Assembly (NCBI GenBank): GCA_900318645.1
Contig: ONLH01000031.1
Location: forward strand, 30,356 to 94,355
Direction: 5' to 3'
Length of the DNA stretch: 64,000 bases
DNA from: an uncultured Prevotellaceae bacterium
Lineage (GTDB): Bacteria > Bacteroidota > Bacteroidia > Bacteroidales > Muribaculaceae
Both the position numbers and the translations under genes were made by a program. This document shows, piece by piece, positions 11,494-43,698 of this stretch (position 1 is its first letter; every line of letters begins with the position of its first letter). Under the pieces are notes generated by a model. It was not told the DNA's origin, made no database searches, and saw only the letters and a list, made by a program, of their open reading frames with translations.

Positions 11494-11575
11494 GCGCCTG
11501 TGGCGAAATTGGTAGACGCGCCAGACTTAGGATCTGGTAACTCCGGTTGTGTAGGTTCGAGTCCTATCAGGCGCA
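11494..11575 (+). tRNA. tRNA-Leu (anticodon UAG)
   Basis: An 82-nt class II tRNA. The acceptor stem pairs GCGCCTG with CAGGCGC, the discriminator base is A, and CCA is not encoded. The anticodon stem CCAGA/TCTGG encloses CTTAGGA with anticodon TAG. A long variable arm and the T-arm GGTTCGAGTCC are visible. Its 3' end (bases 11559-11576) recurs four more times up to position 18087. Confidence 0.95.
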
Positions 11576-11584
11576 CAGTAACAC

Positions 11585-11611
11585 AAAACCCGCTGAAAAT
11601 CAGCGGGTTTT
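11585..11611 (+). terminator. Terminator of tRNA-Leu
   Basis: AAAACCCGCTG and CAGCGGGTTTT form a strong hairpin followed by T residues, 10 bases after the tRNA. Confidence 0.85.
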
Positions 11612-11660
11612 ATGCGTTAATTTAGGCCCTGAAATGAAACTGAACCTATTGAAATGCGTT

Positions 11661-11684
11661 ACATTAAAACGATTTCTTTGATGT
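11661..11684 (-). terminator. Likely terminator of serpin A
   Basis: An inverted repeat ACATTAAA...TTTGATGT lies 14 bases past the serpin stop codon. The same stem follows serpin B (15029-15052) and, in variant form, serpin C. Confidence 0.5.
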
Positions 11685-11697
11685 GTTTACCATCGGT

Positions 11698-13467
11698 TTA
11701 ATTGTTTAATCCTTCATTGCCTTTTCGAGGTAATTTGAAGGTGACGGGTAGGGTATACCACACGGCAACGGCTTGACGATTCTGGCGGCCAGGATTGAAC
11801 TTGGGTAGCGTCTTGATGATGCGAACGGCCTCCTCGTCAAGGTCTTTGTCCACCGAGCGGACAACCTTTACTTCACCAATATTACCGGTCTTGTCAACAA
11901 CGAACTGAACAACCACGCGACCCTGAATATTGTTCGCCTTCGCCATAGGCGGGTAGTTGATGTGCATCTTCAGGTACTTCATCAGTGCAGCCTCACCACC
12001 AGGGAATTGAGGCATTCGTTCAGCGCTACGGTAAATTTTATCTTGGTCTTCTGATCTTTTTTCTTTTTTGCCATGATCTGAGGCAACAACAATTTCGTCT
12101 TCTTCGTCAATATTTTGAATATTTACCTTTTCGCCGCCATTTTCACCACAATAAGTGCCCATGAAGAGAATCGTGCCAGTGCTGTGCTCAACGATGTAAT
12201 ATACAAATGGGCGAGTGGCATGGAACTGGAACGTTTGTCCTTGTTCTACGACTACTTCTTCTTTTAGTTGCATCTGAACAACCGTGACAGCAGCAGCTTT
12301 AGTCCCCTCTTCCGCTACTTCGATTTTAGCCTTCTGCTTCATCATCGATACATAGAGGTCATCAATGTGTCCCTGTGCCATGTTGGGGAACTCAGCACTC
12401 ATTCCGAATGCACGCGGCATGCCCATCGACGAGAGTATAGCCTCAAGTGGTGTCTCGCTTTCGGTGGAGAAACGGGGCATCAGAATATCGACCTCATTAA
12501 TAGTCATGTGCCTATGTTGTTCCAATTTTTGCGCCGATAGACTCCGGATGACATTGTGGATTGTCTTACCCTTGCGAGGAAGCAGCACAACCATGCTGTA
12601 GCCACCATTGCCATAAGGCAGGCGCAGCATCTTACATAGGTCGTTCTCGCCGTAGGCTGCCCTAGTTTTGAGATGCATCATCTTGTGCTTGACAATTGTA
12701 CCGTCCTGTTTTGTGAAATACTTATCTTTGGTTTCATTGGGGTTAAATTCCTTGGTCCACAGGGCCTTGAAGTAAACGGCGTTCATCAGAATCATGGCTG
12801 GAGGAGGATTGAGCTCATGCTTTTTAAGAATATTGGGAATCATGCCGTCGGTGTGTGTCTTGCACCAGTTGTTGATGATGGTCAGGCTACTGTCTTTTCT
12901 GAAGTCCAGCGCATCGACTTGAGCATTGTAATACTTCAGCATATCGGTCTCGTACTGCGGGATGAGCCTGATGTCCTTTGCCGAGTTGACATCAATGCAG
13001 TTGGCGGTTTTTACTATCACTTTCGTATCAACAATAGGGGTTTCATCTATCATCTTCTTGAAGTACTTGTTGATCTCCTCTACAGTACTACCATTCAGTC
13101 CAAGTACATCGGTAATCTGCCGACGTGTCTCGCCGTCGGCACCCTCGTTAAGCATCCCCAGCAGGTAGCTCACACTGATGGGAGACACGATGATGCTGCG
13201 ATTGTCCTTTCTCTGCTTGTAAATAGTGCGGAACAGGTTGCAGATGAAATCATTGTTGCTATTACACATCTTGCGTTGGGATTCGGTCAATCTGATGTCC
13301 TTGGGGAAATCATTGTCAATGTCACTCACCTCGGGTTGAGTTGGGGTGATGTCTTCGTTCACAGGCTGCTCTTTGGCAGAAAGGAAGTTGTCATCTTTAA
13401 TAAAGACAACGAGGGTGGTGAGCAGCACTACTGCAGCTAATGTGCTAAATATCCAGTTTCGTTTCAT
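11698..13467 (-). CDS. Serpin A: exported serpin fused to a TonB C-terminal domain
   Basis: A 589-aa protein. The ATG at 13467 is used; the frame extends three codons to a TTG. An N-terminal hydrophobic segment (STLAAVVLLTTLVVFI) is a signal peptide or membrane anchor. Residues about 67-440 are a serpin (MNEGADGETRRQITDVLGL-like start, NAVYFKALW, VVLLPRKGKT). The inhibitory hinge EEGTKAAAVTV is intact, which favours a true inhibitor. By spacing from the hinge, the scissile P1-P1' is roughly Lys-Glu in VQMQLKEEVVVE, but the loop is long. The shutter/C-terminal motif RPFVYYIVEHSTGTILFMG follows. Residues about 481-580 are a TonB_C domain (PQFPGGEAALMKYLK, INYPPMA, GRVVVQFVVDKTG). Related to serpins B and C below. 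Confidence 0.88.
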   Translation of the reverse strand: MKRNWIFSTLAAVVLLTTLVVFIKDDNFLSAKEQPVNEDITPTQPEVSDIDNDFPKDIRLTESQRKMCNSNNDFICNLFRTIYKQRKDNRSIIVSPISVSYLLGMLNEGADGETRRQITDVLGLNGSTVEEINKYFKKMIDETPIVDTKVIVKTANCIDVNSAKDIRLIPQYETDMLKYYNAQVDALDFRKDSSLTIINNWCKTHTDGMIPNILKKHELNPPPAMILMNAVYFKALWTKEFNPNETKDKYFTKQDGTIVKHKMMHLKTRAAYGENDLCKMLRLPYGNGGYSMVVLLPRKGKTIHNVIRSLSAQKLEQHRHMTINEVDILMPRFSTESETPLEAILSSMGMPRAFGMSAEFPNMAQGHIDDLYVSMMKQKAKIEVAEEGTKAAAVTVVQMQLKEEVVVEQGQTFQFHATRPFVYYIVEHSTGTILFMGTYCGENGGEKVNIQNIDEEDEIVVASDHGKKEKRSEDQDKIYRSAERMPQFPGGEAALMKYLKMHINYPPMAKANNIQGRVVVQFVVDKTGNIGEVKVVRSVDKDLDEEAVRIIKTLPKFNPGRQNRQAVAVWYTLPVTFKLPRKGNEGLNN

Positions 13468-13513
13468 ATCAGTCAAATTTTTAGGTTGATAAAAACGGGT
13501 TAACTCTCGCCTG

Positions 13514-13521
13514 CAAAGTTA
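13514..13521 (-). promoter_or_regulatory. -7 element of serpin A
   Basis: Reverse complement TAACTTTG, 47 bases before the start codon, inside a stretch conserved upstream of serpin B. Confidence 0.55.
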
Positions 13522-13668
13522 CAACTGATTATTGAAATAACTACTAAAAAAGACCAACATTCATAGATCATTTCATAAAGGTAAACAGATTGATTTACAG
13601 GCGTCTACATAATAAAAAGGTCATTAATGGGTAATTCACTTGAACAAGCACTGAAAAGGTGTGATTTT

Positions 13669-13688
13669 GGGGGTGCGTGCGCTCCCCC
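13669..13688. repeat. G/C-rich hairpin (gggggtgc...gctccccc) with T-run
   Basis: GGGGGTGC and GCGCTCCCCC can pair apart from one T-T mismatch, followed by TTTTT on the plus strand. It belongs to the same family as 14794-14813, 16909-16928, 17957-17976 and 19989-20010. It precedes the 63-bp core. Confidence 0.7.
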
Positions 13689-13708
13689 TTTTTGCGCCGT
13701 TCAACGCA

Positions 13709-13771
13709 ATCAGGCGTCGGGAGGTTTTTAAGGGTTTTGGGAGGCGCGAGCCTGAGTCCTATCAGGCGCAC
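13709..13771 (+). repeat. 63-bp array repeat, copy 1, ending in the tRNA-Leu 3' end
   Basis: Starts ATCAGGCGTCGGGAGG, continues TTTTTAAGGGTTTTGGGAGG, and ends GAGTCCTATCAGGCGCAC. ATCAGGCG occurs at both ends, and GCCTGA/TCAGGC form an internal stem. Confidence 0.85.
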
Positions 13772-13772
13772 G

Positions 13773-13799
13773 ATAACTCGCTGATAATCAGCGAGTTAT
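13773..13799 (+). terminator. Hairpin after array repeat copy 1
   Basis: ATAACTCGCTGA and TCAGCGAGTTAT pair perfectly around a 3-base loop. It occupies the same place as the tRNA terminator but has diverged in sequence with compensatory pairs. Confidence 0.6.
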
Positions 13800-13925
13800 A
13801 TTATTTTAACACCCCTCCACGCTCCCCCATTCAGGCATAATTGCTCACTTGAATTGCCATATTAGCACATATTCCCTGATCCATTACTCTTGTCTCAATG
13901 TAGAAACGATTCCATATTATAGATT

Positions 13926-14600
13926 CTATTTGTAGTATTCTGGGTATAACTCATAGGTTATTGAAACATGTTTACGGGGAACATATTGAATGCGTACACT
14001 ATATTCCTGATAATAAAAGGTAGTTACTTTACCAGATTTGATTTTACTTAGTGCCTCAGATCTATTAAAGCTTTTTCCGCTCGTAATTAGATCATATAAA
14101 TGTTCCAATTTAATATCCTTATATTTCAAAGTAGAATACTGCTTATATACTATACCATTATACATAGAAAATATCATATCCGCTGATTCTATCTTATAGC
14201 TTCCATCTTTCCGTTTAATCAAATTTGGATACATACATTGTATTAGTTGGAGCGAGCTTTTTAGAAGATTCTCAGGAAGAATGACATGCCTGTGTGGACA
14301 AAAGCATAATTCATGCCACTCATTCATTTCAATGACAAGAGAAGAATCATTCAAGATCTCTACAAACTTGGTATAGTATCCCACATAAGAGAACTTAAGG
14401 ATATTACCTTTTTCAACTTCAATGCTGAAATTGCCATCACCATCGGTCGCTGTGCCGCGGTCGGTGCCGCCGACCATAACGCTCGCACCGATACATTGCA
14501 GACTATCTCTTGCATCAATCACCTTACCCGTTATCTTAAACGGTTCGGCACTTACACTAAAGGCGAATAATATAAATATGTATAAAAATAGCTGTCTCAT
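13926..14600 (-). CDS. Exported protein with a CarboxypepD_reg-like beta-sandwich
   Basis: A 224-aa protein. The start at 14600 is chosen because GGAGG lies 8-9 bases upstream, a rare visible ribosome-binding site here, and a signal peptide follows (LFLYIFILFAFSVSA). Residues about 18-95 are a carboxypeptidase-regulatory-like domain (FKITGKVIDARDSLQCIGA, GTATDGDGNFSIEV, LKFSYVGYYTKFVEI), as found at the N-terminus of SusC-type receptors. The remaining roughly 125 residues have no family I recognise. It is more AT-rich than its neighbours, which suggests a different origin. It is the only gene of the second array module. Function unknown. Confidence 0.75.
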   Translation of the reverse strand: MRQLFLYIFILFAFSVSAEPFKITGKVIDARDSLQCIGASVMVGGTDRGTATDGDGNFSIEVEKGNILKFSYVGYYTKFVEILNDSSLVIEMNEWHELCFCPHRHVILPENLLKSSLQLIQCMYPNLIKRKDGSYKIESADMIFSMYNGIVYKQYSTLKYKDIKLEHLYDLITSGKSFNRSEALSKIKSGKVTTFYYQEYSVRIQYVPRKHVSITYELYPEYYK

Positions 14601-14624
14601 AAAGCGTTCCTCCATATATTTTTG

Positions 14625-14632
14625 CAAATATA
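14625..14632 (-). promoter_or_regulatory. -7 element for the CarboxypepD_reg-like gene
   Basis: Reverse complement TATATTTG, 25 bases before the chosen start codon. Confidence 0.5.
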
Positions 14633-14793
14633 CGATTTAATCCCAATAATCGTATTCAAAATACGATAAAATTTAATTTATATGAATATGAAATGCTGTC
14701 AACCTCGGGAATGCAGCAAATTCTGGTCTGGTGTATCTGATGCGAGTCTAACAGTTTAAACTGCTCGGTGCCTTGATAGAAGTTGTATCGCAG

Positions 14794-14813
14794 GGGGGAG
14801 CGTACGCTCCCCC
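14794..14813. repeat. Perfect 20-bp palindrome GGGGGAGCGTACGCTCCCCC
   Basis: Self-complementary over all 20 bases and followed by TTTT. It heads array repeat copy 2. The sequence between it and the 63-bp core is rich in GCGCC/GACGCC units. Confidence 0.8.
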
Positions 14814-14880
14814 TTTTCGCGCCCTTCTGCGCCTTTAGACGCCTTTTCGCGCCTGATAGGTTTTTCACAAACGACTCTCA

Positions 14881-14943
14881 ATCAGGCGTCGGGAGGTTTT
14901 TAAAGGTTTTGGGTAGCGCGAGCCTGAGTCCTATCAGGCGCAC
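14881..14943 (+). repeat. 63-bp array repeat, copy 2
   Basis: Same 63-bp core as 13709-13771, with only a few substitutions (TTTTGGGTAGCGCGAGCCT) and the identical 18-base tRNA end at 14926-14943. Confidence 0.88.
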
Positions 14944-14952
14944 AGGAAACCA

Positions 14953-14979
14953 AAAACCCGCTGAATCCCAGCGGGTTTT
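14953..14979 (+). terminator. Copy of the tRNA-Leu terminator
   Basis: AAAACCCGCTG and CAGCGGGTTTT, the same stem as at 11585, with a different loop (AATCC). The similarity to the tRNA downstream region continues into the serpin B gene. Confidence 0.7.
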
Positions 14980-15028
14980 ATGCGTTAATTTAGGCCCTGA
15001 AATGAAACTGAACCTATTGAAATGCGTT

Positions 15029-15052
15029 ACATCAAAACGATTTCTTTGATGT
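15029..15052 (-). terminator. Likely terminator of serpin B
   Basis: Perfect 8-base stem ACATCAAA/TTTGATGT, 13 bases beyond the stop codon. Confidence 0.5.
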
Positions 15053-15065
15053 GTTTACTATCGTT

Positions 15066-16706
15066 TTAATTGTTTAATCCTTCATTGCCTTTTTGAGGTA
15101 ATTTGAATGTGACGGGTAGGGTATACCACACGGCAACTGCTTGACCATTCTGGCGACCTGGAATGAACTTGGGTAGCGTCTTGATTAGACGAACAGCCTC
15201 CTTGTCAAGGTCCTTGTCCACCGAGCGGACAACCTTTACTTCACCAATTTCACCGGTTTTGTCAACAACAAACTGCAAGATGACACGTCCCTGAATATTA
15301 TTTTTGGCAGCTTCGGGAGGATATTGAATGTGACTGTCTAAATACTTTATCAGAGCGGCATCACCACCGGGAAATTGAGGCATCTGCTCTACTGACTTGA
15401 GGATTTCATTTTCATCTCGCTTAGGCATTTCAACTACAGGATCATATCGACCAAATTCTATTTCACGCTCCTCAAGTGGTTCTTTTATGGTCACCGGTTC
15501 ACCAGTATCGTCGAAACAATAGGTGCCCATAAAGTAGATGGTGCCAGTATTTTTTTCCATGATGTAATATACAAATGGCCGCGTGGCGTAGAAGTACTTA
15601 TAAAAGTTCACTCCTATTGCTACATCTTCTTCTACCGTTACTGCAGCGGCCTTGGTGCCCTCTTCGTTGACCTCGATTTTGGCCTTCTGCTTCATCATCG
15701 ACACATACAGACCCTCCTTTTGTATCATATTGGGGAATTCAGCATCACCTCCGAATGCCAGTGGCATACCCATCGAGGAAAGAATATCCTCAAGATGTGT
15801 CTCGCTTTCGGTAGTAAAGCGGGGCATTAGGACATCGACTTCCTCTGTCCTCATCTGTGACTGCCACTCCTTCAGTTTTTGTGCCGAGAGGTTCCGGATG
15901 ATATCGACGGTCGTTTTACCCTCGTTGGGAAGCAACACAACCATGCTGTAGGCTTTGTTGCCGTAGGGCAGGCACAGCATTTTGCACAGGTCGTTCTTGC
16001 CGTAGTCGGCCATACCATGGTGTTGCATCATCGGCCGCTTGACGGTTTTGCCGTCAAGTGTTATAAAGTCCAGGTCGCGAGTGCTCATGGGGTCAAATTG
16101 ATCGGCCCACGAAGCCTTGAAATAGACGGCGTTCAACAGGTACATCCTTCGATTGGGATGAAGTTCACCCTTTTTCAAGAGTTCTGGTATCATGCCGTCG
16201 GTATGTGTCTTGCACCAATTGTTGATTTTGTTCAAGATGCTGCTTGAGTTGAAGTTAATCGCTTCAACATGCGCGTTATAATAGTTTTGCATGTCAGCTT
16301 TAAACTTCGGGTTGATGCTCATTCCCAATTTGAAGTAGATGCAGTTGGCGTTTTTTAATGTCACGCTTGGGTCAACTGATTGGGCTTCATCCATCATCTT
16401 TTTGAAATATTCGTTAATCTCCTGCACTGAGCCTCCTAGCCCAAGTACATCGGTTATCTGCTGGCGTGTCTCGCCGTCAGCTCCCTCGTTGAGCATGCCT
16501 AGCACATAGCTTACACTGATGGGCGACACGATGCTACTCCCCTTTTTCTGCTCGTTGATGGTGCGGAACAGTTTGCAGGCAAAATCATTGTTGTTATCTG
16601 CCATCTTGCCTTGAGGCGCGGTCGGTGTGCTGTCCTTGGCGAAAGACAGGAAACAGTTCATCAGCACCACGGCAACCATTGCGCCAAATTTCCAAAATCG
16701 TTTCAT
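15066..16706 (-). CDS. Serpin B: exported serpin fused to a TonB C-terminal domain
   Basis: A 546-aa close paralogue of serpin A. The ATG at 16706 aligns with the starts of A and C; here the codon three upstream (16715) is also ATG and could be used. It has a signal peptide (GAMVAVVLMNCFLSFA), a serpin domain (residues about 30-400) with NAVYFKASWADQFDP and the hinge EEGTKAAAVTV, then the loop EEDVAIGVNFYKYFYAT before RPFVYYI. The loop is five residues shorter than that of A, and the predicted P1 is near Ile-Gly. The C-terminal ~105 residues are TonB_C (PQFPGGDAALIKYLDSHIQY), nearly identical to A, including the end KGNEGLNN. It is the single gene of the third array module. Confidence 0.88.
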   Translation of the reverse strand: MKRFWKFGAMVAVVLMNCFLSFAKDSTPTAPQGKMADNNNDFACKLFRTINEQKKGSSIVSPISVSYVLGMLNEGADGETRQQITDVLGLGGSVQEINEYFKKMMDEAQSVDPSVTLKNANCIYFKLGMSINPKFKADMQNYYNAHVEAINFNSSSILNKINNWCKTHTDGMIPELLKKGELHPNRRMYLLNAVYFKASWADQFDPMSTRDLDFITLDGKTVKRPMMQHHGMADYGKNDLCKMLCLPYGNKAYSMVVLLPNEGKTTVDIIRNLSAQKLKEWQSQMRTEEVDVLMPRFTTESETHLEDILSSMGMPLAFGGDAEFPNMIQKEGLYVSMMKQKAKIEVNEEGTKAAAVTVEEDVAIGVNFYKYFYATRPFVYYIMEKNTGTIYFMGTYCFDDTGEPVTIKEPLEEREIEFGRYDPVVEMPKRDENEILKSVEQMPQFPGGDAALIKYLDSHIQYPPEAAKNNIQGRVILQFVVDKTGEIGEVKVVRSVDKDLDKEAVRLIKTLPKFIPGRQNGQAVAVWYTLPVTFKLPQKGNEGLNN

Positions 16707-16753
16707 ATCAGTCATATTTTTTAGGTTGATAAAAACGGGTTAACTCTCGCCTG

Positions 16754-16761
16754 CAAAATTA
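16754..16761 (-). promoter_or_regulatory. -7 element of serpin B
   Basis: Reverse complement TAATTTTG, in the same place as the TAACTTTG of serpin A. Confidence 0.55.
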
Positions 16762-16908
16762 CAACCGATTATTGAAACAACTATTAAAAAAGGCCAACAT
16801 TCGAAGGTCATTTCTTGGAATTAAATTGGTTGATTTATAGGTGTTTAAATAATAAAAAGGTCATTAATGGGTAATTCACTTGAACAAGCACTGAAAAGGT
16901 GTGATTTT

Positions 16909-16976
16909 GGGGGTGCGTGCGCTCCCCCTTTTTGCGCCGTTCAACGCGCTCCCCCTTTTTGCGCCGTTCAACGCCT
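16909..16976. repeat. G/C-rich hairpin plus 28-bp tandem duplication
   Basis: The hairpin of 13669 recurs. The following unit GCTCCCCCTTTTTGCGCCGT plus TCAACGC is then repeated in tandem (from 16921 and from 16948). The stretch 16849-16947 is identical to 13609-13707. Confidence 0.8.
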
Positions 16977-17022
16977 TTAGACGCCCTTAAACGTCTCATC
17001 GACATCCTGGAATGGGCTGTCT

Positions 17023-17085
17023 ATCAGGCGTCGGGAGGTTTTTAAAGGTTTTGGGAGGCGCGAGCCTGAGTCCTATCAGGCGCAA
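17023..17085 (+). repeat. 63-bp array repeat, copy 3
   Basis: Same core as copies 1 and 2; the tRNA-derived end is 17 bases (17068-17084), with the final C replaced by A. Confidence 0.88.
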
Positions 17086-17096
17086 TAGGAAAATAT

Positions 17097-17122
17097 AAAC
17101 CCGCTGAACTCCAGCGGGTTTT
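17097..17122 (+). terminator. Copy of the tRNA-Leu terminator
   Basis: AAACCCGCTG/CAGCGGGTTT stem followed by TT, at the spacing seen after the tRNA. Confidence 0.65.
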
Positions 17123-17272
17123 GTGTGTTGATTTGGGCCGTAAATTCAAGTTGAAATCATTGAGATTAGTTCCTTGCTCAAAAGCACATCAAAAGAACTC
17201 TCCCTTTGATGTGTGTGGTAGAAGACGCGGTTTTTTTAATGAGTTTAGTGCAATTTGGTATGATTTTTGCAG

Positions 17273-17280
17273 TATTTTTG
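17273..17280 (+). promoter_or_regulatory. -7 element for the DUF2007 gene
   Basis: TATTTTTG, 37 bases before the chosen start codon; TTTG at 17254 is a weak -33 candidate with short spacing. Confidence 0.45.
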
Positions 17281-17317
17281 CATAAAACAGATAATCTCTA
17301 ACGAAAACATAAAACTT

Positions 17318-17734
17318 ATGAGTATGAAACCAGTATTATTAGCCTGTTTTGATGATGAAATGACCGCTACCAGATTACAACAAGATTTGGATGCAAGCGG
17401 CATTGACTGTGTCGTACAAGAAGAGGTAAAAACCTATGATGTCTTGATTAGTCTTAATCATAGTGGTTCTTGTTTCGCATTATATGTTGATGAGAAAGAT
17501 TACACTGCAGCAAAAGGAGTTTTTGAGCAATTCAGCAAAACAAGAGACGAAGAAAAACCTTGGTGCCCAAAATGTGGTTCTGAAGATGTAACGCGCACAA
17601 AAGTTCATCATCCGCATGGCCCAAAATGGTTGTGGTATATTTTCGATTCAGCACTTGCAGCGCACTTCTATTTCCAGGAATATGATGAAGAGGATTGCCA
17701 CTGTAATAGTTGTGGGCACGATTTCAAACGGTAG
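17318..17734 (+). CDS. Small cytoplasmic protein: DUF2007-like domain plus zinc ribbon
   Basis: A 138-aa soluble protein. The start at 17318 (MSMKPVLLACFDDEMTATRL) is preferred over an upstream ATG that overlaps the likely promoter. Residues about 3-70 resemble DUF2007 (annotated as putative signal-transducing): ACFDDEMTATRLQQDLDASG, then SCFALYVDEKDYTAA. Residues about 80-138 carry paired cysteines, WCPKCGSEDVTR and CHCNSCGHDFKR, which should bind one zinc ion. Its AT content is higher than that of the neighbours. It is the only gene of the fourth array module and has no signal peptide, unlike the other cargo. Confidence 0.7.
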   Translation: MSMKPVLLACFDDEMTATRLQQDLDASGIDCVVQEEVKTYDVLISLNHSGSCFALYVDEKDYTAAKGVFEQFSKTRDEEKPWCPKCGSEDVTRTKVHHPHGPKWLWYIFDSALAAHFYFQEYDEEDCHCNSCGHDFKR

Positions 17735-17882
17735 TGAAACCTCATCCTTTTGATTTACCTCTACATTTTTCAGATATTCTTTCTCTGACTATTCATCACC
17801 GTACACATTCGCTCATGATGCTGTAATAATTTCTTTCTAATTCTGGATTCTAAAAACTCAGTGAATCGTATAACCAAGGCAT

Positions 17883-17937
17883 AGCATATATTGGGAAGCG
17901 CTTGCGGCAGTGCCTCGTACAATGACAGCAGTATGCC
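17883..17937. repeat. Roughly 55-bp sequence similar to 22861-22917
   Basis: AGCATAT...GGAAGCGCTTGCGGCAG...ATGACAGCAG resembles AGCATATGCAAAGGGAACCG...TTTGCGGCAG...GCCAGCAG at 22861. The second copy lies in the orphan dockerin fragment. No gene is apparent here. Confidence 0.45.
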
Positions 17938-17956
17938 GCATCGCCAATTGCTTTTT

Positions 17957-17976
17957 TGGGGGGGCGTACGCTCCCC
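17957..17976. repeat. G/C-rich hairpin of the array family
   Basis: GGGGGCGTACGCTCCCCC-type near-palindrome followed by TTTTT and GCGCCCTTAAACGCC, as ahead of the other 63-bp cores. Confidence 0.7.
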
Positions 17977-18024
17977 CTTTTTGCGCCCTTAAACGCCTCA
18001 TCGGCTTGCTGGAAAATGCTGTCC

Positions 18025-18087
18025 ATCAGGTGTCAGGAGGTTTTTAAAGGTTTTGGGAGGCGCGAGCTTGACTCCTATCAGGCGCAC
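18025..18087 (+). repeat. 63-bp array repeat, copy 4
   Basis: Same length with no indels but more substitutions (ATCAGGTGTCAGGAGG, GAGCTTGACTCCTATCAGG). It is the last copy and is not followed by the CCCGCTG hairpin. The C10 peptidase gene starts 188 bases later. Confidence 0.85.
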
Positions 18088-18206
18088 AGGAAAAGTTTAT
18101 TTCAATGTTTCTTTTCTCATTTCACTATAAAAACATTATTCATTGTTGAATGGGACGTGGTTGGTGTGCTTGATGACTTCAGTGCAGTTTCTCCCCTCAT
18201 CAGGAA

Positions 18207-18237
18207 TTGCACAAGTGTAAGGTATGTTGTATATTTG
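18207..18237 (+). promoter_or_regulatory. Promoter of the first C10 peptidase
   Basis: TTG at 18207 and TATATTTG at 18230-18237, 20 bases apart. The start codon is 39 bases downstream. Confidence 0.65.
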
Positions 18238-18275
18238 CAGTCATGAAGTCGTACAATCTTTTAATTTATTGAGCT

Positions 18276-19937
18276 ATGAAACGTATTTTCCTTTTGATTT
18301 CGATGATGGTTTTGGCAGTATCGGGTGTTCTAGCCGCGAGTGTTACTGTTGATCAGGCTAAGGCTGCAGCTCAGCGTTTTACTCAGGAGAACCGATCGCG
18401 CTTTGCTTCGGGCAAAGCTGGAGACAACCTGCAACTGGCCTTTACGGCCCGCAGCAACGGGATTGATGCCGATTACTATGTGTTTAACGTGAAGGCTGAT
18501 GGCGGTTACATCGTCGTTGGTGGTGACGACCTGGCGGAGCTTGTTTGGGGCTACAGCACGCATGGTGAGTTTGATTATGACAAGATGCCTGAGAATATGC
18601 GTTGGTGGCTCTCAGAGTTTCAGCGTCAGCTGAATTGGCTGCGCGAGCATGCCAAAGCAGGAGCCCGTCGGCTTACCACACTCTCGAGAAGTGTGGCGCC
18701 CTTGATGTCCTCGATATGGGGTCAGGATGTCCCCTTCAACAATTATTGCCCCCAAATTGGCAATGCAATTGCCCCGACAGGTTGCTTGGCTACCGCGATG
18801 GCCCAAATTATGTATTATCATCGTTGGCCCAAGCAGGGCGCAGGCAGCCACAGTTACACTTTCGTGCCTTATAATGGCCAAGAAATGACACTTTCGGCTG
18901 ATTTCTCGCAGTCAACCTATGATTGGGACAATATGCTAGACAGCTATGAATCATCCTATAATGAGGAACAAGCTGACGCAGTGGCTAGATTGATGAGCGA
19001 TGTTGGCATCTCTATTGACATGGAGTATAGCGCTGATGAGAGTTTTGCCTATTATAGTCATGCCATTGAAGCACTGATGGCTTATTTTGATTACTCGACT
19101 TCAATGAGCTATTTGTTAAAGGACAGCTATACTGGCGATTGGGACGAGATGCTGCGCAACGAGTTAGATGCCAACAGGCCTGTTTTCTATTTCGGCCAAA
19201 GTGCAACTTTCGCTGGCCATGCCTTTGTCCTGGACGGTTATGACGACAATGGCTATTTCCATGTGAATTGGGGCTGGTATGGCCGGTATGATAATTATTT
19301 CTTGACGAGCCTGTTGCGTCCTTATGTTGGCGACAATAACCCAGATGAAGCTAATTATTCTTATGATCAAGGAGTCGTTGCCGGTATTCAGCCTGATGTC
19401 ACCGGTGACGGAGCTATTGTCCTGAAATCGGGTATCATCCCGGCAGCATCAACAATGCCTGCAAATGATGTCAAGGCTTCATTTGACATTCAGGCTTTAG
19501 GAGGTCCATATACGGGGACTTTGAATTTCGTGGTTTGTTCTAAAACTGGCGATGACTCTTATAGTTGGTATAATAGCAATGTTGTAAGAATCAACGTGTC
19601 GCTAGCTGCGGGCGAGAGGAAGACCATCGAGGTGAATCGTGCGTTCAATAACTTGAACGAAGGCAATACTTATTATTTCTTCCTGATTAATCCTTATATT
19701 ACTATTGCCAACTATTATTGGTGTACTCCAGTTGGGTTTACGGTTGGTGCTTGGCCTGTCATGGTGGGCGACGTGAATGGTGACCACAATGTTACCATCA
19801 GCGACGTAACAGCACTCATCGATCTGCTGTTAAGCAGCGGAACGATCAGCAATGAGGCCGCTGACGTCAATAAAGATGGCAATGTAAGCATCGCTGATGT
19901 AACCGCCTTGATTGACTACCTGCTGAGTGGTAATTAA
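18276..19937 (+). CDS. C10 family (streptopain-like) cysteine peptidase with dockerin-like tail
   Basis: A 553-aa secreted protease precursor. Signal peptide MKRIFLLISMMVLAVSGVLA. An N-terminal C10 pro-domain follows (VTVDQAKAAAQRF, residues about 22-135; DYYVFNVKADGGYIVVGGDD). The papain-fold catalytic domain has Cys170 in APTGCLATAMAQIMYYHRWP and His315 in FAGHAFVLDGYDDNGYFHVN, with the conserved NWGWYG after it. All catalytic residues are intact. Residues about 400-490 are a beta-sandwich. The last ~55 residues are two dockerin-like repeats (GDVNGDHNVTISDVTALID, ADVNKDGNVSIADVTALID). It lies between serpins B and C. Secreted or surface proteolysis is inferred from the SpeB/interpain family. 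Confidence 0.93.
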   Translation: MKRIFLLISMMVLAVSGVLAASVTVDQAKAAAQRFTQENRSRFASGKAGDNLQLAFTARSNGIDADYYVFNVKADGGYIVVGGDDLAELVWGYSTHGEFDYDKMPENMRWWLSEFQRQLNWLREHAKAGARRLTTLSRSVAPLMSSIWGQDVPFNNYCPQIGNAIAPTGCLATAMAQIMYYHRWPKQGAGSHSYTFVPYNGQEMTLSADFSQSTYDWDNMLDSYESSYNEEQADAVARLMSDVGISIDMEYSADESFAYYSHAIEALMAYFDYSTSMSYLLKDSYTGDWDEMLRNELDANRPVFYFGQSATFAGHAFVLDGYDDNGYFHVNWGWYGRYDNYFLTSLLRPYVGDNNPDEANYSYDQGVVAGIQPDVTGDGAIVLKSGIIPAASTMPANDVKASFDIQALGGPYTGTLNFVVCSKTGDDSYSWYNSNVVRINVSLAAGERKTIEVNRAFNNLNEGNTYYFFLINPYITIANYYWCTPVGFTVGAWPVMVGDVNGDHNVTISDVTALIDLLLSSGTISNEAADVNKDGNVSIADVTALIDYLLSGN

Positions 19938-19988
19938 TGAGTACACCAAGCAGTCTGCATTTTTAAGGCAAGTTTTTATCTTATTTCT

Positions 19989-20018
19989 GGGGGGAGCATG
20001 CGCTCCCCCCTTTTTTTT
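19989..20018 (+). terminator. Terminator of the first C10 peptidase
   Basis: GGGGGGAGC and GCTCCCCCC form a 9-bp stem followed by eight T residues. It is the array-type hairpin used as a classic intrinsic terminator. Confidence 0.85.
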
Positions 20019-20067
20019 GTCGTTCAGTGCCTGTCTGGCGGTGCGTTGTCGGTTGGGCTGGATGTTG

Positions 20068-20847
20068 TCAGTCGTGAGTGAGGATTAGCGTGGCGATGAC
20101 TGGGTAGTGGTCGCTCAGTTTGACTGGTATGACCTGCGACTCAATGGTGTGCCAGGACTGTTTGGGTTGGGCGAGGATGTAGTCAATCTTCTCACTGGGG
20201 GAGTTGGCGCTGAATGTGAAATCGCCCGTTGTGCAGTCAAGCCACTGGTTCATGAGCCGTTCAATCACAGGGTCGTCTGGCGAGGCATTGAAGTCGCCGG
20301 CTAATATCACGGGGTGCGTCGAATTGGAAAAATGCTCCAGAATGAACTGAACCTGGGCAGTCCGGCTGATGTTATCGAAGGCTTCAAGATGGGTGCATGC
20401 GAAGGTGATGGTATCGCCATCGGCAAGGATGAAGGTTCCCTGGAGCATGCCCCGCTGCTCCATGCGGCCGATGGGATGCGGCAGTTTGATGTTGTGGACA
20501 TCGACGAACTGATGCCGTGTGAGCAGGCCGATGCCGTAATAACCTCCGCTGAACTTGATGGTGGGCCCGAACAGCCCTTGCATGCCGCTGTAGTGGGCCA
20601 ACTCGGTGATAAAATCGCGGTCATTCTGATGGGGACAATTGGAGCGCTGGGTATTGTGATCCACTTCCTGCAGCGCGACAAAGTCGGGTTGGTATCGCTT
20701 GATGAACTGACCTAACTGCTGCAGACTGGCATCATGGCCGGCATGGATGTTAAAGGTCATGACCCTGATGGTGTCGTTGTGACCTTGAGCCGAGGCCGCA
20801 CATGCCACCAGCCATGCCGATATCAGAAGTATATGACGGAGTCTCAT
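20068..20847 (-). CDS. Secreted endonuclease/exonuclease/phosphatase-fold protein
   Basis: A 259-aa protein with a signal peptide (HILLISAWLVACAASAQ). It has the EEP fold motifs in order: VMTFNIHAGHD, then FVALQEVDHNTQRS (metal-binding Glu), FACTHLEAFD, ILAGDFNASPDD and the final KLSDHYPVIATL (catalytic Asp-His). Members include DNase I-like enzymes, sphingomyelinases and inositol phosphatases; the substrate here cannot be decided. Export points to an extracellular or periplasmic phosphodiester or nucleic acid substrate. Confidence 0.88.
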   Translation of the reverse strand: MRLRHILLISAWLVACAASAQGHNDTIRVMTFNIHAGHDASLQQLGQFIKRYQPDFVALQEVDHNTQRSNCPHQNDRDFITELAHYSGMQGLFGPTIKFSGGYYGIGLLTRHQFVDVHNIKLPHPIGRMEQRGMLQGTFILADGDTITFACTHLEAFDNISRTAQVQFILEHFSNSTHPVILAGDFNASPDDPVIERLMNQWLDCTTGDFTFSANSPSEKIDYILAQPKQSWHTIESQVIPVKLSDHYPVIATLILTHD

Positions 20848-20873
20848 AGTGAATGAAAAAATGGTTAGATGTG

Positions 20874-20881
20874 CAAAAATA
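20874..20881 (-). promoter_or_regulatory. -7 element of the EEP-fold gene
   Basis: Reverse complement TATTTTTG, 27 bases before the start codon. Confidence 0.5.
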
Positions 20882-20930
20882 CTAATTATTTAGGCACTGA
20901 AATTGAAACTATTATTGTTGTTCGTTTTTT

Positions 20931-20991
20931 ACATCAAAAGAACCGTCCCTTTGATGTACCTTTGATGTAAAAAGAACCATCCCTTTGATGT
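20931..20991 (-). repeat. ACATCAAA/TTTGATGT repeats after serpin C, probable terminator
   Basis: TTTGATGT occurs three times (20950, 20961, 20984) and ACATCAAA once (20931), with the unit AAAGAACC[GA]TCCCTTTGATG duplicated. The last copy touches the serpin C stop codon. It is a variant of the stem after serpins A and B and of a copy at 17191-17215. Confidence 0.65.
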
Positions 20992-22673
20992 CACATTGTG
21001 AACGTCACTGGGAGCACGTACCACACATCGACGGGCTTGCCATTGTGGCTGCCTGGGGTGAAATTGCGCAAGGACTTCACGAGGCGGGTGGCCTCTTTGT
21101 CAAGGTATTCGTCAGCTGAGCGGACAACCTTTACCTCACCGACCTTTCCAGTCGTCTTGTCGACAAGAAACTGCACAATGACCCTTCCCTCAATCATGTT
21201 CTCGGCAGCCATGGGCGGATAGTTGATGTGCGACTGGATATATTTCATCAAGGCATCATCGCCACCAGGGAACTGAGGCTTTTGTTCTACGCTGTAGCCT
21301 TTGTGATTAATAGACAATTCAGGACGGGGTATGTCTCCACGTGTTTTGCCGAAACATTTCACCAACACTTCCGGGAGGACTTCAACGGCATCATCGCTGT
21401 CAAAACTATCTACATCTATCTTCACTTCGGTGGGAATGACTACACCTTCTTCACCGCAATAGGTGCCCATGAAATAAATCGTGCCCGTGCTGTTATCGAC
21501 GATGTAATATACAAATGGGCGTGTAGCGTGGAATTCCTTCCATATTGTGCCGCTGGGATTCAATGATTTAGTCATCATCCCAGTAACAGTAACGGCAGCA
21601 GCCTTGGTTCCCTTTTCATTGACCTCGATTTTAGCCTTCTGCTCCATCATCGAAACCCAGAGTTCTTCATCTTTGACCATATTGGAGAATTCAGCGTCGC
21701 GGGGATTGAATGCCCGCGGCATGCCCATTGACGAGAGGACTTCTTCAAGTCTGATTTCGCTTTCGCTGGTGAAACGGGGCATCAGGATATCCACATTGTG
21801 ATTAGTCATTTCCTGGGTTCGTTGCATCTCCAGTTGTTCAGCTGAGAGGTTTTGGATAATGTCGCCGATGGTCTTGCCCTCGTGTGGAAGCAACACAATC
21901 ATGCTGTAGCTGCCGTTGCCATAGGGCAGGGATAGCATCTTACACAAGTCGTTGGAGCCGTAAGCGACTCCTTTAATAGAAACGTGCATCATCTTATGCT
22001 CAAGAATAGTGCCGTCCTGTTTTGTGAAAATCTTGTTGCGGGTATTCTTGGGGTCAAATTTGTTGGTCCACGAGGCCTTGAAATAGACAGCGTTGAGCAG
22101 ATACATTGCGACTTGGGGCTCGAGCATGTCAAGAATATGGGGTATCATACCGTCGGTGTGGATTTTGCACCAGTTGTTGATGATGTCCACATTCCTGCTA
22201 TTGCTGAAGTCAAACGCATCGATTTGAGCATCATAAAACTTCTGCATATTCTCCTTATACTTGGGGATAAGACAGTAGTTCCATGCCGAGTTGATGTTGA
22301 TGCTGTTTGCGATTTTTATCGTCACCGTTGAGTCAACACCTGAGGCTACATCCATTATCTTCTTGAAGTGCTGGCTGATCTCTTGCGCCGAGCCATCCAG
22401 TCCAAGCACATCGGTAATCTGGCGCTGCGTCTGGCCTTCAGCACCCTCGTTGAGCATTCCCAGCATATAGCTCACGCTGATGGGAGACATGATGAAGCTG
22501 CGATTGCCATGCCTTTGCCCGTAGATGGTGCGGAACAGGTTGCAAGCGAAATCATTGTTGCCTTCAGCTATCTTGTCTTGAGTTGCGGTCGGTGCGCTGT
22601 CCTTGGCAAATGCCAGTAGGCTGCTCATCAGCACCAAGGCAGCCATTGCGCCAAATTTCCAAGTTCGTTTCAT
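20991..22673 (-). CDS. Serpin C: exported serpin fused to a TonB C-terminal domain
   Basis: A 560-aa third paralogue, more diverged than A and B. The start at 22673 matches theirs; the codon three upstream is TTG. It has a signal peptide (GAMAALVLMSSLLAFA), a serpin domain at residues about 30-410 (NAVYFKASWTNKFDPKNTR, MIVLLPHEGKTIGDII), and the hinge EKGTKAAAVTV. The loop TGMMTKSLNPSGTIW precedes RPFVYYIVDNSTGTIYFMG; the predicted P1 is near Lys-Ser. The last ~100 residues are TonB_C (PQFPGGDDALMKYIQSHINY, ending VLPVTFTM), without the KGNEGLNN end of A and B. It lies outside the 63-bp repeat array but beside the C10 peptidase. Confidence 0.88.
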   Translation of the reverse strand: MKRTWKFGAMAALVLMSSLLAFAKDSAPTATQDKIAEGNNDFACNLFRTIYGQRHGNRSFIMSPISVSYMLGMLNEGAEGQTQRQITDVLGLDGSAQEISQHFKKIMDVASGVDSTVTIKIANSININSAWNYCLIPKYKENMQKFYDAQIDAFDFSNSRNVDIINNWCKIHTDGMIPHILDMLEPQVAMYLLNAVYFKASWTNKFDPKNTRNKIFTKQDGTILEHKMMHVSIKGVAYGSNDLCKMLSLPYGNGSYSMIVLLPHEGKTIGDIIQNLSAEQLEMQRTQEMTNHNVDILMPRFTSESEIRLEEVLSSMGMPRAFNPRDAEFSNMVKDEELWVSMMEQKAKIEVNEKGTKAAAVTVTGMMTKSLNPSGTIWKEFHATRPFVYYIVDNSTGTIYFMGTYCGEEGVVIPTEVKIDVDSFDSDDAVEVLPEVLVKCFGKTRGDIPRPELSINHKGYSVEQKPQFPGGDDALMKYIQSHINYPPMAAENMIEGRVIVQFLVDKTTGKVGEVKVVRSADEYLDKEATRLVKSLRNFTPGSHNGKPVDVWYVLPVTFTM

Positions 22674-22719
22674 GTCAGTCAAAATAATTAGGTTGATAAA
22701 ACGGATAATCTCTCGTTGG

Positions 22720-24993: not shown

Positions 24994-27900
24994 ATGAAGA
25001 GATTAAGGATGTATTTTGCCTTGGCCATCATGATGTGTATGTGCCTGGGCGCTAATGCTCGGTCGAGTTATTACGATGACCCGGGCGGAGGATTGTACTA
25101 TGCCAATGTGTACATGGCTTGGTCGACCGATAACGAGTCTTACGGCTGGTGTACCGGTGACAGCGAGTATGATGCAATGGGCCGGTTCACAGGCTTCTCC
25201 AGCGAGAATGGAGGGAACTTCACGACTGACCGTCCCGGAATGATGATCAGGTTCCGTTACCATACCTCGCAGTCCAAGGACTTTAACTACAAGAGCACGG
25301 AGTATAAGGTCTATGCCTTGATGGCCGACGGAACTTCGATTCAGATCGGTCATAATAATGCAGGCTCAGTACGCTTGGAAAATGACAATACGGCCTACGC
25401 GGTGCTTGTGAGTCCTGGATTTGACGGTACTTGGGCGAGTTTCCGCATATTCCTGAATCAGAGGGCCATTGACCAAGGTATCAAAACGATTATGATTTCT
25501 GGAACGTCCTCCTATCATCAGGACAACTTTTTCACCAAGGACCGTGACATGAAGATCAGCTACTGGTATGAGAAAGATGTGCGCACCAACTACACCCGTG
25601 TGCCGGCACCAACCATCACATGGGACAAGCCTGGTGAGGTTCAGGTGCTTATGGACCATACCAGCATCCCCTTACCCGATGAGGACCAGTACTGGCGCAA
25701 CTTGGGTACGGGCAATCCGCAGCATCGCAACGGAATCGGCACCCTTGCAGGTGAGTACCAGTATAAGGGTATCTACAAAGTGACCGTGCTCGGCGTCGAT
25801 GATAGGGTTATCGTACCGACCCAGACGCTGGAATATGACGGCCATGACAAGAAAACTGTCGCCATCCAAGTTCCGATGGACAAGACCTTCAAGGTGACAG
25901 TGGAGCGCAGCACAGCAGCGAGAATGCGCATCAATTACTGGAATGGTGGAGGTGAAGAGTATGCTACCAATTGGACCATTACCGAGAATCTCGCGGGCAG
26001 TGAGACGACTACCACAACGTTCAATAATGACAAACTCAATGTGAGTGTCGATTTCAACCAGGTGACAGGCGATTTGCGCTTGGGATGGGACGATCAGGCC
26101 GACCCCAAAGAAGGTGATTTCCAGATCTATCGAACGACAGTGGATGAGAACGGCAACTTCAAGAGCAACCGCATGAAGTTGGGAACGACATCCCGCCAGT
26201 ATTACATTGACGGCCTGGAACAAGGTCTGGAATACGGCAAGCGATACCGTTACGAGGTCTTCCAACTCAAGCAGGTATGGAGTGATATCAACATTCCCAC
26301 CGATCCTGAACCCTTGACCATCCTTGATGCCTCCGAGGTTTGGGTAAGCACCACCCCTGTCATCCCGTTGACCCTTGTTCAGGACGCTACGGTTACCGAC
26401 AAGGTGAAGATTGATTGGGAATTTGGCGGCATACCCGCCAGTGACAATATGGTGAAGTTTGCTGTCAACCGCATCACCCCCGACGGCACCCTGGAAAACA
26501 ATTATGGTACTGTCGATGTTGACAGGCGGGCAGGTAAAGCCTCGTTTGAGGACACACGGCCTGCCAGCAATTGCGACATCTACCGCTACTTTGTCACGAC
26601 CGACCTGGTGGACAACAAGATTCATTATAGCAGCGACACCATCGCAGCCCATGTGCTTGACGGCAGTGTCGTCACCTCAGTGACAATCAGCAAGGGTGAC
26701 TTTAAAACGGGTGTGCGTCTCACGTGGAGAGCCAAGCAAGTGGGTACCCTGCCGACGACCTATGACGTGAAACGTCGTTTCATCGGCGATGATGAGTGGA
26801 TTACCATCTACACTACCCAGGGCACTGCGACAGAGTATGTCTATCTTGACGAATCTGCCGAGCCGGGCCGCTACTATGAATACCGCGTGACAGCCTATGG
26901 CGCTGACTGTGATGGCACCGGAAATATGGTTGTGAGCAACTATATCGAGGAGACGGGCTTCGGTCAGGCAACAGGTGTGATTGCTGGACGTGTGACCTTT
27001 GAGACCGGTACCGCTGTCCAGAATGTGCAAGTCATGCTGGACCGAACCAACGACGAGCAGTCAACGCGTGACCAATTCTATAGCCGCCGTATCTATCAAG
27101 GCGGTTTAGGCGTCATGTGGCAGCCCACATTGAACTATGCCCAGGGATTGATTGCTCCCGAGAAAGCCTTTACTGTGCAGATGTGGCTCAGTCCTGACCA
27201 GACCATCCGTAATGCTAGTGGCAGCACCGTCGATTATTCAAAGGTGTTGACGCTTGACGGTATCGGCGACCTGAGGCTTGTCCCGACAGAGACCAGTGGT
27301 CAATATCTGCTGCAGTGGCACATGGACAGCAACGAGGCACCACTCATCGTAGCACCCGACACGGTCTGTGCCGGCATCTTCAGCCATGTTACCCTGCGTC
27401 ACGATGGCGCCGGCAAATATGATATGATCCTGAATAACGAATCTGATGTGGTGAGTGCCCAGGTGAGCGGGGACTATGCGTTCACCGACCATAACGGCAA
27501 AGCAATCATCTACTTTGGCGGCGGTGACGAGGACAAGATTCATGGTTATAGCGGCTATATTGATGATGTGCGACTGTGGAGCAAGGCCTTGACCAATGAT
27601 GAGATTGCCCGAGACCGCAACCGCATCCTCAGTGGTCGTGAGGAGGGCTTGAAGCTCTACTATCCGTTTGACGAAGGCTTGACCCTGTACGCCTATGACA
27701 ATTCTTATACCAATGGCGCACCCAATGGCAACCATCCCATCATCAACCGCAACAGCCTTGCGTCAACGCTCATTCCCACCCATGACCAATTAAGCCTGTA
27801 TGGAATGACCAATGCCAATGGCGAGTACATTATCCGTGGTATCCCCTTCAGTGGCAGTGGAACGGGCTACACCGTTCGCCCCGTGTTGGGTGTTCACGAT

Positions 27901-43552: not shown

Positions 43553-43698
43553 CAGTCTAAAAAGATTGTGAGGTGTGATCATGTAGATGGTATCTTTTGC
43601 AATACCAGTAAGATTACCCTCTTTTTTTGAATTAATATTGCCAATAATACTGGACTGTAAACTTTGAGTTTTATTAATTATATCTAATATTTTTGTTT

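Follow-up and report, generated by a model that had tools for sequence, protein, structure and literature searches.

Why would a serpin, a protease inhibitor, end in the domain with which TonB contacts its partners? The question is raised by three genes on the minus strand of a 64,000-nucleotide stretch (the window) of contig ONLH01000031.1, from assembly GCA_900318645.1 of an uncultured Prevotellaceae bacterium. Each gene encodes a serpin followed by a TonB C-terminal (TonB_C) domain, and genes and proteins 1, 2, and 3 are referred to as S1, S2, and S3. The answer that we favor, with about even confidence, is that the tail may dock a periplasmic serpin at TonB-dependent outer-membrane transporters. 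Numbered loci (L), genomes (G), and protein homologues (P) carry the labels of this analysis, and the relatives named in the comparisons are metagenome assemblies. The 20 loci taken as the fused set (L016–L035) have record titles naming RUG, Tb.RUG, water buffalo reticulum, or roe deer abomasum, or giving a read accession, and from these titles we read their sources as mainly ruminant.

Serpins with a TonB C-terminal domain

The genes and their domains are as follows.

11698..13476, minus strand: S1, 592 amino acids (aa) from TTG, likely start ATG 13467, N-terminus resembling an uncleaved anchor
12148..13260, minus strand: S1 serpin domain, residues 73-443, Pfam match
12226..12312, minus strand: S1 hinge and reactive center loop, nominal P1 Lys
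11731..11964, minus strand: S1 TonB_C domain, 84% identity to the genome's canonical TonB domain
15066..16715, minus strand: S2, 549 aa, likely start ATG 16706, N-terminus resembling a signal peptide
15519..16595, minus strand: S2 serpin domain, residues 41-399, Pfam match
15594..15665, minus strand: S2 hinge and reactive center loop, nominal P1 Ile
15099..15332, minus strand: S2 TonB_C domain, 80% identity to the genome's canonical TonB domain
20991..22682, minus strand: S3, 563 aa from TTG, likely start ATG 22673, N-terminus resembling a signal peptide
21456..22562, minus strand: S3 serpin domain, residues 41-409, Pfam match
21534..21617, minus strand: S3 hinge and reactive center loop, nominal P1 Lys
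20997..21230, minus strand: S3 TonB_C domain, 72% identity to the genome's canonical TonB domain

The initial annotation had read these three open reading frames (ORFs) as serpins fused to TonB_C, and the domain search bears this out, with both domains far above the Pfam cut-offs. The Serpin profile (PF00079, cut-off 27 bits) matched S1, S2, and S3 with 321, 348, and 320 bits, respectively, and covered positions 2–368 of 370 in S1 and S3 and 2–367 in S2, which corresponds to a full-length serpin. The TonB_C profile (PF03544, cut-off 24.6 bits) matched with 81.5, 80.6, and 65.9 bits over positions 2–79 or 2–78 of 79, a complete domain in each protein, and NCBIfam TIGR01352 concurs on the tails. 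Translation probably starts at the fourth codon of each frame, the ATG given above. The hinge [ED][EK]GTKAAAVTV, also proposed earlier, is unbroken in all three, and its form EEGTKAAAV or EKGTKAAAV is that of an inhibitory serpin, whose hinge at P17–P9 is described in a passage of PMC8233489 as small residues of the ExGTEAAAA type. The signal or anchor segment proposed for each protein is likewise present as judged by eye, cleavable-looking in S2 and S3 and uncleaved in S1.

Comparison with solved structures indicated that the serpin closest to S2, both by sequence (222 bits) and by a fold search with a structure model, is miropin from Tannerella forsythia, itself a member of the Bacteroidales. 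Miropin shares the inhibitory hinge and differs in having no TonB_C tail (its 375-residue chain was matched over 8–369); a passage of PMC4604654, citing Ksiazek 2015, reports it as most likely exposed at the surface, with some of it in the periplasm. The first structure model, built on 51 close sequences, had a poor serpin part with a mean predicted local distance difference test score (pLDDT) of 55, and a second model from more diverse rows reached a mean pLDDT of 79 for the serpin part and 90–96 for the tail. The second model draws the reactive loop partly as a strand, on which we place no interpretation. The two fold searches listed serpins only, with no structural match for the TonB fold of the tail among them. 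The tail resembles the C-terminal domain of the Bacteroidota TonB energy transducer, being 72–84% identical to that of the genome's own TonB; unlike TonB, the fused proteins lack the TonB N-terminal region, and the serpin replaces the periplasm-spanning linker. The two further serpins of the genome are both tailless lipoproteins. Tailless lipoprotein serpins of the genus belong to the same serpin family (L004 is 50% identical to S2 over the serpin) but carry a lipobox and an acidic export-like signal, no tail, and different reactive loops.

In a search of non-redundant proteins, 2160 of 8000 scored candidates passed an E-value of 0.001, and 119 of the best 120 of these 2160 contain both Pfam domains, so the fusion is not confined to one genome. 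In one homologue (P0107), two TonB_C domains follow the serpin. Within the genus, a serpin match occurs in 35 of the 61 genomes. We counted 85 distinct serpin ORF pieces, comprising 26 fused, 54 tailless, and 5 cut at the 3' side, with pieces of one broken gene counted apart, a weak match in G031 yielding none, and a 34-residue fragment of G033 left out. The fused serpins, read from the ORF table, fall in 18 of the 61 genomes. Outside the genus, no match to both domains was found among the matches listed for 198 genomes of the family (16 of them in the genus) and 395 of the phylum, and none of the serpin frames listed for 295 genomes of the order exceeded 508 aa, the source genome excepted; weak or very different fusions could be missed by such scans. 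An outlier with a 719-aa frame was seen in a genome of another family (G674). The architecture whose extent the initial annotation had left to be counted is real and common within the genus; it is narrow in range rather than widespread. The suggestion that it was undescribed also stands within the literature searched (titles and the starts of abstracts, subscription papers mostly lying outside), where no serpin–TonB_C fusion was described among the matches listed. The sole match for "serpin" together with "TonB C-terminal" has Serpin as an author name, and the part of a serpin-family review consulted speaks of signal classes and of no TonB_C fusion.

Kinship and constraint of the tail, and export signals of the fused proteins

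The genome contains ten TonB_C matches, seven of them not on serpins. Among these seven, the domain of the canonical 293-aa TonB (L009) is the nearest to all three tails (S1 84%, S2 80%, S3 72%). Against the L009 domain, the genome's other forms show 73% (secreted), 71% (M56-linked), and 61% (Cys-rich) identity, less than the S1 and S2 tails do. Across the 56 columns conserved at 90% or more in 18 TonB rows of the genus, the TonB residue is kept at a mean of 0.88 in 35 serpin rows, compared with 0.80 in the M56-linked and 0.67 in the Cys-rich forms.

Analysis of the serpin tree rejected a single clade of all 25 fused rows (approximately unbiased [AU] test, p 3.4e-8, difference 455 log units), which rules out one origin of the fusion for all of them. 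The fused serpin L094, from the relative G010, is placed among tailless serpins, and its tail carries a GRNAxG insertion that is present in 4 of the 121 TonB_C domains, every one of them encoded by G010. Together with the rejected clade, this placement and this insertion suggest that the L094 tail was most likely gained separately, and further gains or losses are likely within the main fused group. The tree of the short TonB_C domain has few firm forks, and these alone are compatible with one origin of the tail. As judged from the serpin tree, the tail has been gained or lost more than once in the genus.

The ratio of nonsynonymous to synonymous substitution rates (dN/dS) was pooled over 192 non-independent pairs with dS <1 among 37 rows. 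In fused serpins, dN/dS is 0.26 for the serpin body, 0.13 for the hinge, 1.01 for the reactive loop, 0.63 for the linker, and 0.19 for TonB_C, and removal of near-duplicates (34 rows, 157 pairs) gave 0.26, 0.14, 1.00, 0.62, and 0.19, respectively. The canonical TonB_C domain has a dN/dS of 0.13 (138 pairs), and the loop of tailless rows 0.62 (136 pairs, 53 rows, including a few 3'-cut ones possibly from fused genes). These ratios indicate that the tail and the hinge are under purifying selection and the reactive loop is not, a pattern that fits an inhibitor with a changing bait and a retained scaffold and tail. Lys or Arg stands at the nominal P1 position, which was assigned by counting and hence is uncertain, in 18 of 36 fused rows (16 of 34 without near-duplicates) versus 15 of 53 tailless rows; Lys is the commonest in fused rows and Thr in tailless rows.

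Fused serpins are predicted to be exported via a signal peptide or anchor. Of the 23 with a readable signal, 21 lack a lipobox by pattern, the two exceptions being S2 (a marginal LMN-C, where relatives have LMSS or LMSG) and L094 (LGS-C); in contrast, 37 of 49 tailless serpins with a readable signal have one (Fisher p 7.9e-8). Of 39 tailless lipoprotein serpins (two 3'-cut ones included), 29 have two or more acidic residues in positions +2 to +6. Surface lipoproteins of Bacteroidetes are marked by K-(D/E)2, or by S with Asp at +3 and +4, according to a passage of PMC5080379. S1 and S3 have no lipobox, the LMN-C of S2 is followed by no acidic residue at +2 to +6, and the combination of lipobox and acidic export-like motif (by eye) was found in none of the 23 fused serpins. 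Because this surface-export-like signal is missing, the fused serpins are predicted to stay in the periplasm. Among the 119 fused homologues, 61 have a cleavable-looking signal, 14 an anchor-like one, 14 a lipobox by pattern (12 of the S2-type LMN-C and two ending in ASC), and 30 no readable signal. The lipobox as a clean opposite of the tail was dropped, despite the Fisher value, for want of enough independent pairs. By eye, the N-termini of S1–S3 also differ from the corresponding region of the genus's canonical TonB, where an energy transducer would have the helix and motif for coupling to ExbB/ExbD.

Possible docking at transporters and its alternatives

In the reading that we favor, the exported serpin would be kept on the periplasmic side, where its tail, like that of TonB, may bind transporters at the TonB box or the N-terminal extension. 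Strand addition is how the C-terminal domains of TonB and TolA engage their targets, and for Bacteroidota the transporters' N-terminal extension has been implicated as well (passages of PMC12204202); on the transporter, TonB engages the TonB box (a passage of PMC6434023). Docking would be passive, since the proteins lack the N-terminal region of canonical TonB. Possible partners are numerous, with 28 Plug-domain matches in the genome, 27 of them over the cut-off. The docked serpin could then encounter proteases that leak through or attack the plug, or enzymes that the cell itself has in transit, and its action would be that of an ordinary serpin: cleavage of the bait loop, insertion of the loop, and trapping of the protease. 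The initial annotation had offered a receptor tether or a periplasmic shield as the role; this is indirectly supported by a tail that is a constrained near-copy of the TonB domain and by the absence of a surface-export-like signal, and it is still inference. If true, a protease inhibitor would be set at a precise envelope address through a TonB docking domain, gained repeatedly in one genus, which would hint at where serpins guard the Gram-negative cell. The fusion also makes it possible to test directly, in live Bacteroidota, whether a TonB domain that is not powered binds transporters.

Several observations weigh against docking. The dN/dS of the loop is about 1, not above 1, and relaxed constraint would give an equal value. 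One secreted TonB_C form keeps the conserved TonB residues nearly as well as the serpins (0.86, 4 rows, versus 0.88), and the tail of the L025 fused serpin stands beside that form in the TonB_C tree. The S3 tail is less TonB-like (72%) and ends short of the last S1 and S2 residues. The link between lipobox and fusion fails a control for kinship (3 independent pairs, not significant), and two fused homologues (P0103 and P0105) look like lipoproteins, without the acidic motif. Some tailless serpins have a fused-type N-terminus, so the tail is dispensable for some serpins. Finally, many further envelope proteins of the genus contain TonB_C kin, and the role of the domain may be more general.

This last point leads to an alternative in which the tail would be a general periplasmic handle that binds peptidoglycan, dimerizes, or contacts another envelope protein, with no dock at transporters and the serpin simply periplasmic. 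Kin of TonB_C are found in tandem, M56-linked, Cys-rich, and secreted proteins that are not TonB, and the fetched loci hold 98 non-serpin TonB_C ORFs (canonical TonBs and cut copies included); in addition, PMC8262864 ties the TonB-like SjdR to septum structure in Anabaena. However, the greater closeness of the S1 and S2 tails to canonical TonB than to the genome's other non-serpin forms, the retention of most conserved TonB residues by serpin tails, and the few firm forks of the TonB_C tree make a general handle rather unlikely.

A further alternative concerns the target and is compatible with docking: the inhibitors would mainly shield the cell against the cysteine proteases that it secretes, while these are in transit. 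The window encodes two C10 (streptopain-type) peptidases with a Spi prodomain and a C-terminal dockerin (18276-19937 and 43693-45426), the first of them between genes 2 and 3, and a related gene lies near the L025 fused serpin. However, C10 matches number only 3 among the ORFs of 159 loci and the window (many loci having only 1–2 kb of flank), so the neighborhood is not generally conserved, and L018 keeps a similar gene order without the C10 gene of 18276-19937. We regard this target as unlikely, and a conserved link between serpins and C10 peptidases was dropped on the same count.

The tail could also be no more than a product of recombination, a 3' homology block that serpin cassettes have in common and exchange through, with no binding function of its own. 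Genes 1 and 2 share one such segment.

11580..11879, minus strand: shared tail segment, made up of the 3' end of gene 1 (about 180 bp coding) and some 120 bp beyond it, with 93% identity to 14948-15247 of gene 2

This identity over 300 nucleotides (nt) compares with 59–84% in windows over most of the serpin and 81–99% upstream; in the 3' flank, about 120 bp at 93% is followed by 83%. At the other end of gene 1, about 400 bp around the 5' end (13527-13128) is 90–95% identical to tailless serpins in L016 and L163. Gene 1 is therefore mosaic, its 3' end matching gene 2 and its 5' end the tailless serpins of relatives, and recombination can probably transfer the tail from one serpin to another. 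Tailless and fused genes, moreover, share the repeat arrays described below. Yet the dN/dS of the tail is below that of the serpin body, and the tail has been gained or lost more than once, which makes a mere by-product distinctly unlikely.

A TonB-like or export-coupled device, with the serpin driven by a transporter or leaving through it, is very improbable: the secretion of PopC in Myxococcus requires the transporter Oar and its TonB box (a passage of PMC6434023) and S1-type proteins have an N-terminus resembling an uncleaved anchor, but the N-termini lack, by eye, the conserved region of the genus's canonical TonB, and in the PopC case the TonB domain sits on TonB and not on the cargo.

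The tRNA-Leu repeat array and neighboring genes

The segments that carry genes 1 and 2 are bordered by repeats of a tRNA 3' end.

11494..11576, plus strand: tRNA-Leu(TAG); copies of its 3' end recur along the array
13707..13771, minus strand: 65-nt repeat containing the tRNA-Leu 3' end, upstream of gene 1
14879..14943, minus strand: 65-nt repeat containing the tRNA-Leu 3' end, between gene 2 and the 233-aa ORF
17021..17085, minus strand: 65-nt repeat containing the tRNA-Leu 3' end, upstream of gene 2
18023..18087, minus strand: 65-nt repeat containing the tRNA-Leu 3' end, its 16-nt core with one mismatch

The window contains five copies of the 16-mer at the 3' end of the tRNA (0.05 expected), one in the tRNA and four in the 65-nt repeats, one of these copies with a mismatch. 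The borders enclose gene 1 (together with the tRNA itself), the 233-aa ORF, gene 2, and a 155-aa ORF; gene 3 lies outside. In relatives, too, segments are bordered by direct repeats of the tRNA 3' end, as in tRNA-integrated cassettes. A 121-nt version of the repeat gave 47 matches in 24 of 61 genus genomes, with at least two copies on one contig in 12 of the 24, and tRNA-Leu(TAG) is present in 11 of 20 fetched repeat stretches as well as in L024, L025, L034, and the window; some repeat marks at the tRNA are the tRNA end itself. Successive repeats are separated by about 1 to 4.5 kb, an interval that holds one to three genes. Fused serpins are array cargo in L287, L290 (twice), L295, and L298, and tailless serpins in L291 and L298, both types occurring within the same arrays. 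Other cargo among 20 ORFs scanned comprises DUF4143 ATPases, BspA-type surface proteins, an Mrr-type nuclease, a Schlafen-type protein, and ORFs without a family. A serpin lies within 2.5 kb of a repeat on 8 of 29 repeat-bearing contigs, and many arrays are therefore without one. An integrase gene follows the last repeat in L280, the only integrase among the 20 ORFs scanned near repeats; of the 12 integrase matches in the source genome, none is on the contig of the window.

On the natural reading of these repeats, the array would have arisen by serial insertion at the tRNA. Tycheposons and integron cassettes offer a likeness, with repeated tRNA 3' ends bounding short accessory segments. They differ from the array, which has segments of about 1–4.5 kb with one to three genes, one integrase in 20 scanned ORFs, and a repeat that is not palindromic by eye. 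Such tRNA-Leu arrays would give a simple route for the gain, loss, and recombination of accessory genes. More tentatively, and with less confidence than docking itself, an exchangeable, integron-like tRNA-Leu cassette array of this gut Bacteroidales genus may recurrently yield gate-guarding TonB-tailed serpins, docked on nutrient transporters from within and trapping proteases that enter the periplasm, whose bait changes fast via cassette recombination.

Other genes stand near the serpins. The 233-aa secreted-looking protein (13926-14627) lies alone between genes 1 and 2 and has a CarboxypepD_reg-like domain, which resembles the N-terminal extension of SusC-type transporters. Further along, 24994-34788 encodes a 3264-aa secreted-looking protein whose end looks, by eye, like a type IX secretion tail. 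A second context of fused serpins (in relatives such as L019, L022, and L030) is a gene row with other TonB_C proteins, a Cys-rich type, and a gene resembling a radical-SAM activase, and this last neighbor, seen in that context only, was dropped as a candidate partner; the conserved row of TonB_C, Cys-rich TonB_C, and radical-SAM glycyl-radical-activase-like proteins around the fused serpin is seen at L019:8789-13444 and in L022, L029, L030, and L032. Small secreted-looking proteins with a tandem pair of TonB_C domains occur at L027:11721-12674 and L020:3885-4715, and two proteins ending in TonB_C (L219:192-1925 and L221:753-2465) have, by eye, kinase-like N-termini.

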